Of a stretch of DNA of 64,000 nucleotides, positions 26,789-52,628 are shown in pieces. This DNA is from a virus. A model generated the notes under the pieces. The model was not told the origin of the DNA. It searched no databases and worked only from the letters and a program-made list of their open reading frames with translations. The position numbers were made by a program, and so were the translations under genes. The stretch covers positions 36,126 through 100,125 of the IMG/VR virus record IMGVR_UViG_3300033978_000457; one strand, given 5' to 3'. How positions within the stretch are numbered: position 1 is the first letter of the stretch; the number at the start of each line of letters is the position of its first letter.

Positions 26789-28564
26789 TTACGTTCCAAT
26801 CAGAGTTACTTTTAGCCCTTTTGCCGTGCCGTCACCAATTTGATCAACATCTATAGTAATTTCAGCATCGTCTGCTAATGATGTATCTGATATTACTGCT
26901 GCGGTAGCAGCAGTAGTTGAGGTTTTTTCTGTATTATCAATAGTTAGTTTAGTTGATAATATACTAGTGGCTTCTTCGTTGACATCTACTGTAAAAATAT
27001 TACCAGATGTTTGGGCTACGTTTAAATTTCCTCTAATACTTGTAAGTGTCATTGCAAAAGGCATACGGAAAGTAACTTTACTTGTACCTGCTGTAATTGC
27101 TGTAGTTTCATCACTAGCTGCAATTATGAGTATTTTAGAGTTTACAGGTCCTTGGGTGCCTTGCGCACCTGTAGTACCTTGAATGCTTGCTCCTGTAGTA
27201 CCTTGAATACCTTGAGTACCAATTATGCCTTGAATACCTTGACTACCAGCACCTGTAATGCCTTGAGTACCTTGCGCACCTGTAATACCCTGAATACCAG
27301 CACCTGCAGTGCCTTGAGTACCTTGAGTACCAGCACCTGCAATACCCTGAATACCTTGAGCACCTGCAGTGCCTTGAGTACCTTGACTACCAGCACCTGC
27401 AATACCCTGAATACCTTGAGTACCGGCACCTGTAATACCTTGAGTACCTTGAGTACCTTGAGTACCCGTGTTACCTGTTATACCTTGAGTACCTGTATTG
27501 CCTGTTGTACCCTGAGTACCTTGAGCACCAGTGTTACCTGTTGTACCCTGAGTACCAGTGTTACCAGTGTTACCTGTTGTACCCTGAGTACCTTGACGGC
27601 CTTGAATACCTTGAGCACCTTGGACACCTTGAGTACCCTGTGGACCTTGAGTGCCTTGTATACCTTGAGAACCAGTTATACCCTGAGTACCGGCACCTGT
27701 AATACCTTGAATACCTTGAGCACCCTGAGAACCAGTTATACCTTGAATACCTTGAGTACCAGCGCCTGTAGTGCCTTGAATACCTTGAGTACCTTGAATA
27801 CCTGTAATACCTTGACTACCAGCACCTGTAATACCTTGGGTGCCTTGAGTACCAGCGCCCATAGTACCTTGCATACCTTGGGAACCAGTTATGCCTTGAA
27901 TACCTTGAGAACCAGCACCTGTAGTGCCTTGAATACCTTGAGTACCTTGAATACCTGTAATACCTTGACTACCAGCACCTGTAATACCTTGGGTGCCTTG
28001 AGTACCAGCGCCCATAGTACCTTGCGTACCTTGGGAACCAGTTATGCCTTGAATACCTTGAGAACCAGCACCTGTAGCGCCCTGAGAACCTGTAGTGCCT
28101 TGACGGCCTTGAGTACCTTGACTACCAGCACCTGTAATACCTTGGGTGCCTTGAGTACCAGCGCCCATAGTACCTTGCGTACCTTGGAAACCAGTTATGC
28201 CTTGAATACCTTGAGAACCAGCACCTGTAATGCCTTGGGTACCTTGAGTACCTATGGTGCCTTGTGTACCTTGACGGCCTTGAGTGCCTTGAGTGCCTTG
28301 AATACCTTGAGTGCCTATAGTACCTTGGACACCGCTAGCGCCTTGAGTCCCTTCGACGCCTTGACTTCCTGTAGTACCTTGAGTACCGGCGCCTGTAGTA
28401 CCTTGAGTACCTTGTGCGCCGGCACCCCCACCTTGAATTCCTTGAATACCTTGACTTCCTGTTACACCATTTGCGCTCCATACAGTACCATTCCAAACGT
28501 ATCTAGTACCGTTTGGGGCAATATATTGATCATCTATGCTTGGAGAATTAGGAAAATTTATCAA
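26789..28564 (-). CDS. Collagen-like tail fibre protein
   Basis: 591 residues. N-terminal 35 residues carry the phage fibre motif GTRYVWNGTVW. Residues about 40-470 are Gly-X-Y triplets dominated by GTQ, GIQ and GAQ, e.g. [12 protein letters not shown]. The last 115 residues form a globular beta domain (KILIIAASDETTAITAGTSK). Such proteins form collagen triple helices with threonine and glutamine in place of hydroxyproline. A second collagen-like protein is at 31781-33532. Confidence 0.9.
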   Translation of the reverse strand: MINFPNSPSIDDQYIAPNGTRYVWNGTVWSANGVTGSQGIQGIQGGGAGAQGTQGTTGAGTQGTTGSQGVEGTQGASGVQGTIGTQGIQGTQGTQGRQGTQGTIGTQGTQGITGAGSQGIQGITGFQGTQGTMGAGTQGTQGITGAGSQGTQGRQGTTGSQGATGAGSQGIQGITGSQGTQGTMGAGTQGTQGITGAGSQGITGIQGTQGIQGTTGAGSQGIQGITGSQGMQGTMGAGTQGTQGITGAGSQGITGIQGTQGIQGTTGAGTQGIQGITGSQGAQGIQGITGAGTQGITGSQGIQGTQGPQGTQGVQGAQGIQGRQGTQGTTGNTGNTGTQGTTGNTGAQGTQGTTGNTGTQGITGNTGTQGTQGTQGITGAGTQGIQGIAGAGSQGTQGTAGAQGIQGIAGAGTQGTQGTAGAGIQGITGAQGTQGITGAGSQGIQGIIGTQGIQGTTGASIQGTTGAQGTQGPVNSKILIIAASDETTAITAGTSKVTFRMPFAMTLTSIRGNLNVAQTSGNIFTVDVNEEATSILSTKLTIDNTEKTSTTAATAAVISDTSLADDAEITIDVDQIGDGTAKGLKVTLIGT

Positions 28565-31780: not shown

Positions 31781-33532
31781 TTATGTCCCATCACTTATCG
31801 TTAAATCCACGATGTTGCCTAGAGCGTCTGTTTCCCACCACATCCAAATACCGGTAGCAACGGGTCTAGTTTGTTGTACGTAGACTTCTGTAGCTCCACC
31901 CGGACCCCCGCCGGAACCTGAGGGACCTTGTATGCCCTGTGTTCCTGCACCTGTACTACCTTGAATACCTGTAGCACCTTGAATACCTGTAGCACCTTGA
32001 ATGCCTGTAGCACCTTGTGACCCTGCGCCTGTAGTGCCTTGAGTGCCTTGAGTGCCAGTAGCACCTTGGGTGCCGGTAGCACCTTGGCTGCCGGCGCCTG
32101 TAGTACCTTGTATGCCCTGCGCTCCTTGTGATCCAACAGAACTAATTAGTACTGCAAGGTGAACATTATTAGCAAATCCTGTTGTTCCAACTCCTCCCGA
32201 AGAAAGCAGGGTAACAGGGTATGTAACATACGCGTTAGAAGTGTTGGCATTTACAACAGTTGGGTTACCAGAAAGTTGCCAACTTTGAAAATCAGCACTT
32301 TCAATTTTAGACTGTATTCTGAATTGGCTACCTGAGGTTAGTGCAGCTAGGATAAATTCTATATCAACGCCATCATCGTTGATGTGAAAAAAGTTAATTT
32401 GCGTAGCACTAGTTTGAGTCGCATTATTCCATAACAAGTGACCTGAAAGAGGCTGACCACTAGTAGTATTAGCATCGGCTCTATAGGTAAAGACGGATGT
32501 AGATCCGCCTAAGGAACCCTGAGTACCTGTAGCACCTTGTGTACCTATAATACCCTGGGTGCCCTGAGTACCCTGAGTACCTTGAATACCTATAGCGCCT
32601 TGAATACCTATAGCGCCTTGAGTGCCTGTAGTGCCTTGTGACCCTGCGCCTGTAGTACCTTGTATTCCTGTAGCGCCTTGAGTGCCTACAGCGCCTTGGG
32701 CTCCTGTATCACCTTGTGTGCCTTGGGCTCCTACGTCCCCTTGTGTGCCCTGGGCTCCTACGTCCCCTTGTGTGCCTGCGTCCCCTTGTATGCCTGTAGC
32801 GCCTTGCGCCCCTTCGCCTGTAGCGCCTTGAGTACCTATAGCACCTTGAGTACCTGTAGCACCTTGAGTACCTATAGCACCTTGTGTTCCTGCACCTGTA
32901 GTTCCTTGAGCTCCTGTAGCTCCTTGTATACCTGTACCTATAGCACCTTGAGTACCTGTAGCACCTTGTGTTCCTGCACCTGTGGTTCCTTGAGTTCCTG
33001 TAGCTCCTTGTATACCTGTACCTGTAGCACCTTGAGTACCTATAGCACCCTGCGTTCCTACGCCTGTAGTACCTTGAGCACCAGTAGTACCTTGAGTACC
33101 TGCTCCTATAGTGCCTTGGGTACCCTGAGCACCCTGAGCACCCTGAGAACCAGTTATACCTTGAATACCTTGAGTACCCGCACCTATAATACCTTGGGTA
33201 CCTTGAACACCAGTTATACCTTGAGTGCCTTGAGTACCCGCACCTATACTACCCTGGGTGCCTTGAGAGCCTAGTATACCTTGAGCACCTTGAGAGCCCG
33301 TTATGCCTTGAATACCTTGAGCTCCAGCACCTGTAGTGCCTTGGGTACCTTGGGTACCTACTGTTCCTAAAATACCGGCTGTACCTTGAGTACCTATAGT
33401 ACCTTGAGTACCCTGCACTCCCTGTATGCCAGGCACTCCCTGATCAACAGGCAAAGCTAGTTGTACTACAACTTCATTTTCTATTACTTCAAGTGTTATC
33501 GTTTGGCCAGGCACTAGTACATAGTTTGTCAC
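31781..33532 (-). CDS. Second collagen-like fibre protein
   Basis: 583 residues. N-terminal strand segment ([17 protein letters not shown]), a long Gly-X-Y region ([12 protein letters not shown]-type triplets), an interrupting globular beta domain at about residues 350-460 ([20 protein letters not shown]), a short second collagen stretch, then a C-terminal domain with [18 protein letters not shown], a motif shared with other phage tail-fibre tips. The two collagen proteins share triplet usage and may be paralogues. Confidence 0.88.
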
Positions 33533-39749: not shown

Positions 39750-40075
39750 ACGTCCAGAGTTTCTGTTTCTAGGCCTCTGTAACTCCCAATAAGGGTTACG
39801 CCGCTAAGCGCATGTCCTCAAATGCTACGTTGTCGTTTGCATTTAGTTGTTTTTGAACTTCTAACGGAGTTCATTCGAGTTGTCCACTATTTTACAACGC
39901 CAGTCGATCCTATGTCGCCCCCATCAAAAACATACCAACCCCTATCCGAGGCCCCACTGATAGTTGGGCTTAGCTCTAAGCTCTATCAGAAGCCGTCGAG
40001 TTACCGAGGTATGCTTTTGGTGGAGGCGCCGGGTACTGCCCCCGGGTGTTGCCGCCTTATCGTCGTTTCATACAA
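39750..40075 (-). ncRNA. ssrA: Circularly permuted (two-piece) tmRNA
   Basis: Gene order is acceptor piece, loop, coding piece. Acceptor piece (about 40075-40018): T-arm CCGGG-GGCAGTA-CCCGG, 3' strand CGCCTCC, A73, CCA ending at 40018. An intervening loop of about 95 nt (40017-39923) would be removed. The coding piece starts at 39922 with GGGGGCG, which pairs with the acceptor strand over 7 bp. The tag frame (39840-39796) reads ANDNVAFEDMRLAA then TAA. The 3' end of the coding piece is approximate. It would rescue stalled ribosomes and tag proteins for ClpXP. Confidence 0.93.
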
Positions 40076-40585
40076 CTATAATTTAGGTTTATTGATAATA
40101 TCAATAGAAGCTTGAGTTGTGTCGATGATCACGTCTTTTTGACTAATGATCTCTTCCATGATCTTAGACACTTCATTACTAGTAAGTCCTAGTGAATCTT
40201 GTGCCTCAAAAAGTTTTGCGGAAAAAGCAGAAGCATGAAGAGAATACTGAACTTTCATATCCCGAAGAATTTTAGCAAGTTCAACAACTGCCTTAGGGTA
40301 CTTGTTTTCCACTGCATTAACAATAGTTTCAACAGTAATCACAGGCTTCTTAACTTCTTTTTCTAATGCTTCCTGCATCATAACCTTTCCAACATAACCC
40401 GGCGTTCTATAATCTACAGGCTCAACGCTGCCCGTAATTCCTATTGCGCCCTTTGCCTCATCAGTATAGGACGGTTCAGGAGTAATGTCAAGTACCATAT
40501 TCTGATATTGAGACAGCACTCCATTTCGATCCCTAACTGGAAGGAGCTTTCTAAAAAAATCAGTCGTTTTATTCTTGAAGTTCAT
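40076..40585 (-). CDS. Hypothetical protein upstream of tmRNA
   Basis: 169 residues; basic N-terminus (NFKNKTTDFFRKLLPVRDRN), then mostly helical with KYPKAVVELAKILRDMKVQY. No family. The TAG stop touches the tmRNA, so the two are probably cotranscribed. Confidence 0.75.
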   Translation of the reverse strand: MNFKNKTTDFFRKLLPVRDRNGVLSQYQNMVLDITPEPSYTDEAKGAIGITGSVEPVDYRTPGYVGKVMMQEALEKEVKKPVITVETIVNAVENKYPKAVVELAKILRDMKVQYSLHASAFSAKLFEAQDSLGLTSNEVSKIMEEIISQKDVIIDTTQASIDIINKPKL

Positions 40586-50427: not shown

Positions 50428-50817
50428 TTACTTTCTAGGATGTTTAGGGGGCCAGCCATTTACATGTCCAAGCTCGTGGCACATAAGGTTGGCATATTGT
50501 CCGCCGCCTTTAAAAGTGCAGGGGTTTGGTAATGTGTCTGGAAATGTAACAAACGTATCTTTGTCGGCTAGTTTGCTACAAACAAGTTTTGCGTATCTTG
50601 AGCGATTTTCGCAAGCTAGAGGCATAGTCATTAGTTCTACACTAGCGCAAGCTGTTGCTTCTCTGTCTCCAGTTAATCGCTGACATTTTTTCTGAACAGC
50701 TTTTTCTGACAGAAATTCAATACGCACAGCAGTATCTTTTTGATAATTAACTGGTGGTTGTGTAATTTTTGTTCCGCTGGGGAGTATAAACGCGGCAAGA
50801 ATTAGTGCTTTAGACAT
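50428..50817 (-). CDS. Secreted HExxH metalloprotease-like protein
   Basis: 129 residues. Short hydrophobic N-terminus (SKALILAAFIL) and a C-terminal MCHELGHVNGWPPKHP zinc-binding motif (HExxH with a third His after G). Several Cys suggest periplasmic disulphides. Widespread phage type, function undetermined. Confidence 0.7.
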   Translation of the reverse strand: MSKALILAAFILPSGTKITQPPVNYQKDTAVRIEFLSEKAVQKKCQRLTGDREATACASVELMTMPLACENRSRYAKLVCSKLADKDTFVTFPDTLPNPCTFKGGGQYANLMCHELGHVNGWPPKHPRK

Positions 50818-50841
50818 AAAAAAATCTCCGAGTTAGCTATA

Positions 50842-50870
50842 ATCATAGCCCATCTCGGAGACAAAGTCAA
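50842..50870 (-). promoter_or_regulatory. Promoter nested inside a terminator hairpin, copy 1
   Basis: -35 TTGACT (50865-50870), 17-bp spacer, -10 TATGAT (50842-50847), upstream box AAAAAATAATTC. An 8-bp inverted repeat (50825-50832 with 50854-50861) spans the spacer and the leader and is followed by TTTTTTT, so read-through RNA would form a terminator, while RNA starting here contains only the second arm, which is also the GGAG ribosome site for the gene at 50817. Confidence 0.82.
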
Positions 50871-50901: not shown

Positions 50902-51096
50902 TCAATATCCGCATCTTCCTGTGACAAACTTATCTTCACCGTCTCGGCCGAACCACTTCCACATCATGCATTTACTGCCTAGGCATTTTGTAATGCCTTC
51001 GTCATAGCTGCTTCTATTGAAAGAAGTTTCGCTGCCTCTCATGCGCCCAAACGGGCACCACTTCTTCTTAGCTTCATCTTCAGTATAATAAGTCAT
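50902..51096 (-). CDS. Cys/Trp-rich zinc-binding-like protein
   Basis: 64 residues from ATG 51096. WCPFGRM...GITKCLGSKCMMWKWFG...GRCGY has a C...C-x4-C...C pattern common to a small phage family. Start overlaps the TAA of the upstream gene (TAATG). Confidence 0.7.
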   Translation of the reverse strand: MTYYTEDEAKKKWCPFGRMRGSETSFNRSSYDEGITKCLGSKCMMWKWFGRDGEDKFVTGRCGY

Positions 51097-51269
51097 TAGT
51101 AAAAATTCTCCCAAATTGCTTGTAGCAAAATCCAAGTTACAAATGCCACAAGAGAGATGCTCCAAATTATCCACGTAACCCCCAGCGCCCAAGTGACACC
51201 AAGATAGTGTGCTGCCAACCCTACTGGCACAGTCAGCACTACGAAGGTCAGAATCAATCTAGGGATCAT
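51096..51269 (-). CDS. 57-residue membrane protein
   Basis: ATG 51269 to TAA 51096: MIPRLILTFVVLTVPVGLAA then a second hydrophobic helix (VTWIIWSISLVAFVTWILLQ). Two-pass. Coupled at both ends (4-nt and 1-nt overlaps). Could be a small holin/antiholin-type protein; unproven. Confidence 0.65.
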   Translation of the reverse strand: MIPRLILTFVVLTVPVGLAAHYLGVTWALGVTWIIWSISLVAFVTWILLQAIWENFY

Positions 51270-51523
51270 TTAAGCATTGTCCTCAACTTTTCAGCAACTG
51301 CACGTGCTGCATCAAACTCGACCGTTTTACGGTCAGCGACACGTATGACGCCTTCTAGTGCATCTAGCGCCTCAAGTAATGCCTCATAAGAGGGCAAAGT
51401 TTCCCTAGCGTATTCATATGCACACATTACATCAAACTCGTCCGCCTCAACTGGGCGTCCAGCAATTTCGCTATGCATTTTTAACATTTTTGCAAGGATC
51501 GCTTGCGCTACTTGTTGAATCAT
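51266..51523 (-). CDS. Hypothetical helical protein
   Basis: 85 residues, MIQQVAQAILAKMLKMHSEI, all-alpha, ends AEKLRTMLK. Overlaps neighbours by 4 nt on each side. Confidence 0.7.
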   Translation of the reverse strand: MIQQVAQAILAKMLKMHSEIAGRPVEADEFDVMCAYEYARETLPSYEALLEALDALEGVIRVADRKTVEFDAARAVAEKLRTMLK

Positions 51524-51801
51524 TTTTTCCTCCCAATTGCAGTCAGGTCGTCGCTAGCACCAATATACATATATGCACCCTTGTTGCAGATAGGGGCAGA
51601 CGAGAGAAGCTTACGTTGGATCTCAGCGCGCACAGAGTTAGTCTCGTTGTGCATAGCTATGAGCAGCGACTCTTTTTCTTGAACGCACACTACGCCTACG
51701 AGGTCGCTCGTAGGGGGTAGAGTGGTGTCGGGCACATACCGCTCGGGCATGTTCCATGACTTGCCGCGGAGTGGCTTGCGTCTAGTTACCTTCTTCTTCA
51801 T
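51520..51801 (-). CDS. Basic hypothetical protein
   Basis: 93 residues with a basic N-terminus (MKKKVTRRKPLRGKSW) and alpha/beta body. Started from the nested promoter at 51826 with GGAG seven bases before ATG. Confidence 0.7.
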   Translation of the reverse strand: MKKKVTRRKPLRGKSWNMPERYVPDTTLPPTSDLVGVVCVQEKESLLIAMHNETNSVRAEIQRKLLSSAPICNKGAYMYIGASDDLTAIGRKK

Positions 51802-51825
51802 AAAAAATCTCCGAGTTAAGCTATA

Positions 51826-51854
51826 ATCATAGCCTATCTCGGAGACAAAGTCAA
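51826..51854 (-). promoter_or_regulatory. Promoter nested inside a terminator hairpin, copy 2
   Basis: -35 TTGACT (51849-51854), 17-bp spacer, -10 TATGAT (51826-51831), box AAAAAATAACTC. Arms TCTCCGAG/CTCGGAGA at 51808-51815 and 51838-51845, with an inner AGGCTAT/ATAGCTT helix, then TTTTTT. About 55 of 60 bases match copy 1, so it is a recent duplication. Confidence 0.82.
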
Positions 51855-52318
51855 GAGTTATTTTTTAGTAGTGTCCTTGCCTTATCAATATCACGGTAGC
51901 ACACACCATATTCCCAGTTAGTCTGAACCAGCGGCTGTTCTGGTTTAAAATCCCCGTCATCGTCTAGAATGACATGCTTAGTCACGCCTGGGTTATCATG
52001 CAACCACTCATCTACTTCTTGTCCGCGAAATCCCCCACGGAGTTGGGGAGTTGCGCCAATTACAGGCGCATGAAGCCCCCTATATGCAAACATTCTTTGA
52101 ATCTCAACTAGCGTATGAAATTTGCGCCAAGTAGAAGAAATAACAATATACAAAGAAAATTCTGTGCAAAGTGCATTTACAAGTTTGCAAGCAACTGGGT
52201 CTAGGTCCTCGGCATGGCGATGCATAAGCCCACCATGAACGATGATATTTTCTTTGTTAACGATAAACCACTCACGCGAGTTAAGCACGCCGTCGATATC
52301 AAGGAATAGAACTTTCAT
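51851..52318 (-). CDS. HAD-like phosphatase domain protein
   Basis: 155 residues from ATG 52318. VLFLDIDGVLNSREWF (DxD), VISSTWRK (motif II Ser/Thr) and HVILDDDGDF (motif IV) match HAD domains often annotated as Swiss-Army-knife RNA repair phosphatases. Could act in nucleic acid repair. Confidence 0.82.
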   Translation of the reverse strand: MKVLFLDIDGVLNSREWFIVNKENIIVHGGLMHRHAEDLDPVACKLVNALCTEFSLYIVISSTWRKFHTLVEIQRMFAYRGLHAPVIGATPQLRGGFRGQEVDEWLHDNPGVTKHVILDDDGDFKPEQPLVQTNWEYGVCYRDIDKARTLLKNNS

Positions 52319-52628
52319 TTGCTTTCCTAAACAGGTCAATAATATCTTGTTTGGTAGTCGAGTGATGATCGTTAAATACAGCAATATTATGGTGGAACTC
52401 CTCTGGTAGAGCGTCTTCTACCAAGTGCTCTGTAGCAAACTCGAGCCCATGGTTTTCTACGTCATTAAGCTCATAACGAGCACGCCCAATAAATCCTAGA
52501 GCACAGAAGCTACAAGCATCTTCGCTCCACGTATCTACAACCTCGCCGCGAGCGTCTCTAGCGTATGTCTTTTGGGTCCACTCGTACTTATCTAGAAGTT
52601 CGATTGCCTTCGTTAGTACTTTGTTCAT
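52299..52628 (-). CDS. DUF6197-like protein
   Basis: 109 residues from ATG 52628. AIELLDKYEWTQKTYARDARG...SFCALGFIGRARYEL follows the pattern L.ar.W.qg.yard..G...FCalGAi.rA of DUF6197. Function unknown. Confidence 0.75.
   Translation of the reverse strand: MNKVLTKAIELLDKYEWTQKTYARDARGEVVDTWSEDACSFCALGFIGRARYELNDVENHGLEFATEHLVEDALPEEFHHNIAVFNDHHSTTKQDIIDLFRKANESSIP

Follow-up and report, generated by a model that had tools for sequence, protein, structure and literature searches.

A promoter nested in a predicted terminator whose second arm holds the ribosome site: a likely self-insulating gene-start module in a phage genome

Compact phage genomes need co-directional neighbouring genes to be separated at little cost in DNA. 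At the locus described here a terminator of the preceding gene would be expected exactly where the promoter and ribosome site of the next one stand, which raises the question of whether a single short element could serve as all three. The locus belongs to a virus contig of 100,125 bp, 64,000 nucleotides of which were analysed (hereafter the window), and is read from the minus strand. The closest isolate relatives of the contig's DNA polymerase are T5-like phages (46-49% identity), and at least 21 tRNAs are encoded. A first-pass annotation had placed GTCTCCGAG in a promoter spacer and CTCGGAGA in the leader, followed by seven T, and all of these parts are present, on the minus strand and in two copies. 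The span it gave, 50825-50870, covers the -35 hexamer through the 3' arm but omits the T-run and the ATG. In minus-strand order copy 1 (50870-50815) reads TTGACT TT GTCTCCGAG ATGGGC TATGAT TATAGCTAA CTCGGAGA TTTTTTT ATG. The features of copy 1 and of copy 2 (51854-51799), in window coordinates, are:

50902-51192, minus: co-directional ORF preceding copy 1, stop 31 nt before the -35 (listed start uncertain)
50865-50870, minus: copy 1, -35 hexamer TTGACT
50854-50862, minus: copy 1, first (5') hairpin arm GTCTCCGAG, within the promoter spacer
50842-50847, minus: copy 1, -10 hexamer TATGAT, 17 nt from the -35, in the upper part of the hairpin
50834-50837, minus: copy 1, putative transcription start region between the two main arms, placed from the -10 position
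50824-50832, minus: copy 1, second (3') arm CTCGGAGAT, i.e. CTCGGAGA(T), with the GGAG ribosome site at 50829-50826
50818-50824, minus: copy 1, run of seven T immediately 3' of the stem
50817-50815, minus: copy 1, start codon ATG
50428-50817, minus: gene downstream of copy 1, 129 aa, ATG at 50817
51851-52384, minus: co-directional gene preceding copy 2, HAD_SAK_2 phosphatase-like (PF18143)
51849-51854, minus: copy 2, -35 hexamer TTGACT
51838-51846, minus: copy 2, first arm GTCTCCGAG, within the spacer
51826-51831, minus: copy 2, -10 hexamer TATGAT
51807-51815, minus: copy 2, second arm CTCGGAGAT, with GGAG at 51812-51809
51802-51807, minus: copy 2, run of six T
51520-51801, minus: gene downstream of copy 2, 93 aa, phrog_4593

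The ORF at 50902-51192 is probably the gene whose transcription copy 1 would end. At copy 2 the two units overlap, the stop codon of the HAD_SAK_2 gene (TGA, 51853-51851) being part of the -35 TTGACT. The genes that follow the two copies are mutually unrelated, and no family match was found for the 129-aa protein. The copies themselves share a near-identical block of about 67 columns, in which they differ by two substitutions and two 1-nt indels; the block takes in an A-rich stretch 5' of the -35 and stops at the ATG. This A-rich stretch (aaaaata.ttc) is found ahead of most promoters of the phage, so that the repeated unit corresponds to the phage's promoter type plus the nested hairpin. In copy 2 a G-to-A change and a T insertion replace an uneven internal loop by pairs that lengthen the inner stem, a suggestive difference, although a single case.

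The predicted read-through RNAs of the two copies (56 nt each) fold at -20.4 and -23.9 kcal/mol (z -5.5 and -7.2), no shuffle being as stable for either copy, and GGAG is paired within the stem. The transcript predicted from the putative start of the element's own promoter is unstructured (0 kcal/mol). The layout is that of an intrinsic terminator, with a G+C-rich 9-bp stem and an inner stem of 6-8 bp followed directly by 7 or 6 T, while the promoter is of the sigma70 type (TTGACT-N17-TATGAT, 10/12). The window contains the exact arm pair twice, 100 dinucleotide shuffles not once; since the two copies are plainly related, chance is judged on one event. Five TTGAC/TATRAT pairs are observed in the window where 0.56 are expected, and pairing between spacer and ribosome site was not found at the window's other promoters.

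These features are likely to make up a self-insulating gene-start module which ends upstream transcription and hides the ribosome site in any RNA that gets past, while transcripts from its own promoter escape both effects. A polymerase arriving from the preceding gene would copy both arms, and the hairpin with its six or seven U would act as an intrinsic terminator ending that unit. In leak-through RNA the GGAG would be held in the stem and the next gene poorly translated. The sigma70-type host promoter, with the first arm between its -35 and -10, would start RNA between the arms; since this RNA lacks the first arm, no terminator would form and GGAG would be exposed. Termination, GGAG hiding and escape from the own promoter would together leave the next gene expressed only from that promoter, with terminator, promoter and ribosome site packed into about 60 bp. 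The first-pass annotation had reasoned that read-through RNA would fold, terminate and hide GGAG, while the promoter's own RNA starts inside the loop and exposes it. Its anatomy and logic hold in both copies, with termination, occlusion and the start site as predicted steps, and the logic gains comparative support from unrelated phages, whose arms differ in sequence, covary, lie specifically in the spacer and go together with a T-run.

This support comes from a scan of all virus contigs with the pattern TTGAC-N18-TATRAT-N6..22-GGAG-N-TTTTT, in which complementarity was not demanded. The comparative set is thus preselected for GGAG and five T; it comprises at least 120 matches, one family contributing 40 of the 120 listed. 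The score given to each match measures a stem in which the -35/-10 spacer pairs with the GGAG arm (threshold at least 16), and the expectation was taken from spacer shuffles. Among the matches listed, 34 of 90 distinct viral sites pass, against 1.45 expected. Collapsing them by similarity of flanking DNA and proteins gave 47 families, of which, again among the matches listed, 9 have a passing representative (0.43 expected). At least 10 families contain one or more passing sites; all are environmental phage contigs and their arm sequences differ. A control pattern without the T-run remained at chance level (1/122 against 0.96 expected), and the reversed control pattern had no match in the 12 contigs positive for the strict pattern. 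Applied to bacterial genomes, the T-run pattern yielded 5/116 (0.91 expected). Bacterial genome contigs that carry the nested arrangement are L337, L391, L407, L365 and L403.

When the first arm was permitted anywhere from 100 nt upstream through the leader, it fell in the -35/-10 spacer for 43 of 47 strong viral stems among the matches listed, and in the leader for one. No other position close by would stop upstream transcripts and yet leave the own transcript untouched. In the same listed matches the stop of the preceding co-directional ORF usually lies 10-18 nt ahead of the -35. Downstream genes encode, among the matches listed, dCMP deaminase and MazG, and some products appear DnaJ-like from their N-terminal sequence; this variety indicates that the arrangement is not bound to one gene. 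The mazG neighbours in cyanophages were rejected as uninformative: there mazG is part of a cluster of replication genes and follows its neighbours closely.

The association across viruses needs the T-run, which suggests that termination is probably the primary selected function, with ribosome-site hiding as a second layer. This leaves some room, although we rate it well below the module reading, for an economical overlap only, in which the terminator of the upstream gene merely happens to occupy the same DNA as the promoter and ribosome site that follow, and hiding is unselected. The chance-level complementarity between viral spacers and ribosome sites when the T-run is absent (1/122) speaks for it, since termination then looks selected in general. 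It is opposed by the T5-like marine contigs (L117, L173, L184, L149 and relatives) of the family with a helicase neighbour described below, in which several other promoters, without a T-run, still pair the spacer with the ribosome site. These precede different genes, for example MGDR and MREF genes, and their own RNA is predicted to be unstructured. Pairing without a T-run supports ribosome-site hiding as a separate function in that family.

Repetition of the block raises another explanation, a boundary cassette for the exchange of gene modules by homologous recombination with regulation secondary. A near-identical block that stops at the ATG and precedes unrelated genes is what such a cassette would look like. 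We nevertheless regard it as improbable, because the strict pattern occurs as a single copy in each of the 12 positive contigs, which belong to other families, whereas the window's contig has two; repetition is therefore no general feature. The cassette is in any case compatible with the self-insulating module.

Covariation bears on whether the inverted repeat acts in RNA or in DNA. In the largest family the element stands after a DnaB-like helicase and before a 98-aa phrog_27048 protein, and 94% of the cells in the alignment of 14 sequences are paired. Two stem positions, one of them adjoining GGAG, swap between C-G and U-A (CG:7/UA:7 and CG:7/UA:6), with 13 double-changed cells. The stem scores 0.285 for covariation; slid partners score 0.02-0.18 (maximum 0.176), and 0/500 shuffles reached the value of the stem. 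Relatedness inflates such shuffle tests, so that more weight falls on the types of pair observed. In the DnaJ family both sides have changed at two positions (GC/AU and GU/UA). A DNA operator for a dimeric phage or host repressor overlapping the promoter, with the RNA hairpin incidental, would account for the perfect 8-bp inverted repeat around the -10, and the two copies might then form a regulon. It is nonetheless quite improbable: the arms of other phages are wholly different, always contain the complement of the ribosome site, are tied to the T-run and lie in the spacer. Moreover arms elsewhere covary and tolerate G-U pairs, which is RNA logic, this evidence coming from the other phages rather than from the window. 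Finally, an attenuator of the own gene, whose transcript would start upstream of the first arm and whose hairpin would switch on a signal, recalls the hairpin, U-run and ribosome site of riboswitch expression platforms but is highly improbable, as RNA from a promoter whose -35 and -10 enclose the first arm cannot include that arm, no credible match to a curated riboswitch or other Rfam leader family lies near the element and no comparably strong second promoter lies directly upstream of it.

In IMG/VR the exact element was found only in the phage's own contig, and protein relatives of the flanking genes only there and in one further contig, L009. The L009 homologue of the gene after copy 2 (74% identity, the one homologue) is not preceded by such a promoter. 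Relatives of the DNA polymerase at 90-100% identity are on fragments without the element region, a blastn search of the element against isolate phages gave chance-level matches only, and the strict pattern is absent from 30 T5-like records, mostly isolate genomes. No relative with the phage's own arms was thus found, and the case for the window rests on thermodynamics and class analogy. In the helicase-neighbour family the helicase matches T5-like phages, and this family and the window seem, by reading of the sequences, to have ligase-like genes in common.

The first-pass annotation knew of no named class of this kind, which is too strong in view of precedents in T4 and in insertion sequences. 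The T4 genes e, soc, 49, I-TevI/II/III and segB, and mobE of Aeh1, have ribosome-site hairpins: in long transcripts that enter from upstream the ribosome site is folded away, while a promoter in the hairpin region gives RNA without the first arm, which is translated (PMC3014915, PMC2988022). Such start-site-dependent hiding is established for T4 e and I-TevI. The element resembles the gene e type in that GGAG is predicted to be paired in read-through RNA and the RNA predicted from the local promoter lacks the first arm. In T4 late or middle promoters serve to delay late genes, whereas here the promoter is of the sigma70 type and not of the TATAAATA late type. Termination at a U-run is not described in the passages of the T4 accounts considered here, whereas here the hairpin also resembles a terminator of the upstream gene. 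On sequence grounds the principle would be the same as in T4 e, the differences being terminator fusion, a sigma70-type promoter and recurrence.

Tn10/IS10 and IS200 are reportedly protected from outside promoters, in work attributed to Davis (1985) and Beuzon (1999). IS200 has a terminator distinct from its ribosome-site hairpin. The insertion elements resemble the module proposed here in making incoming transcription unproductive through RNA structure or termination before the start codon, but their own promoter is not known to lie within a terminator. Insertion sequences are described as using 5' terminators or ribosome-site hiding to block expression from outside (PMC2965389). Naville and Gautheret (2010) proposed that one hairpin could both terminate and hide the ribosome site, none having been demonstrated at that time; their terminators are attenuators of the gene's own transcript, whereas here the promoter lies inside the hairpin and the own RNA would escape (PMC2965389). 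The SAS/ESAS sequences of cluster K mycobacteriophages are also repeated at translation starts, several per genome, with inverted repeats upstream; in contrast to the present element they have a fixed consensus, and their inverted repeats precede the ribosome-site motif without pairing with it (PMC3203893). The 13-bp SAS/ESAS sequence GGGATAGGAGCCC is absent at both gene starts, where CTCGGAGATTTTTT is found.

No description of a promoter nested in a terminator was found in the open-licence literature, and a single hairpin that unites a promoter with a terminator and a ribosome site appears to be undescribed. We lean, with some reserve, towards a broader reading, in which the element represents an undescribed class, a widespread and convergently evolved phage module of about 60 bp that makes each gene answer only to its own promoter. 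If so, two layers, termination and a translation block, would be held in about 60 bp, and the module would be a promoter-nested form of the ribosome-site-hiding terminator that Naville and Gautheret (2010) listed as undemonstrated. It would also flag unit boundaries in uncharacterised phage contigs by sequence alone and provide builders of bacterial gene circuits with a small, insulated part for expression.

Several other features of the window were observed. The minus-strand stretch 34833-34560 begins with a promoter showing an 8-bp spacer-leader match, but no T-run or evident start; near its end is a 15-bp stem (AACTTATTTGAGGG...CCCTCAAATAAGTT), its overall fold has a z of only -0.46, and it is possibly a non-coding RNA. 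At 58680-58652 (minus) the spacer of a TTGACA...TATACT promoter is a perfect 7-bp hairpin (AACCCGCTCAATGCGGGTT, z -3.9) without a T-run. A tandem promoter pair with a GGGAGAAC...GTTCTCCC hairpin between its members lies upstream of the tRNA cluster (62425-62310, minus). The phage also encodes a tmRNA (39751-40135, minus) which matches the alphaproteobacterial, two-piece type, with the ARAGORN tag ANDNVAFEDMRLAA. Long proteins encoded at 26789-28564 and 31781-33532 (minus) are composed of collagen-like G-x-Q-G-T repeats and are probably virion fibres.
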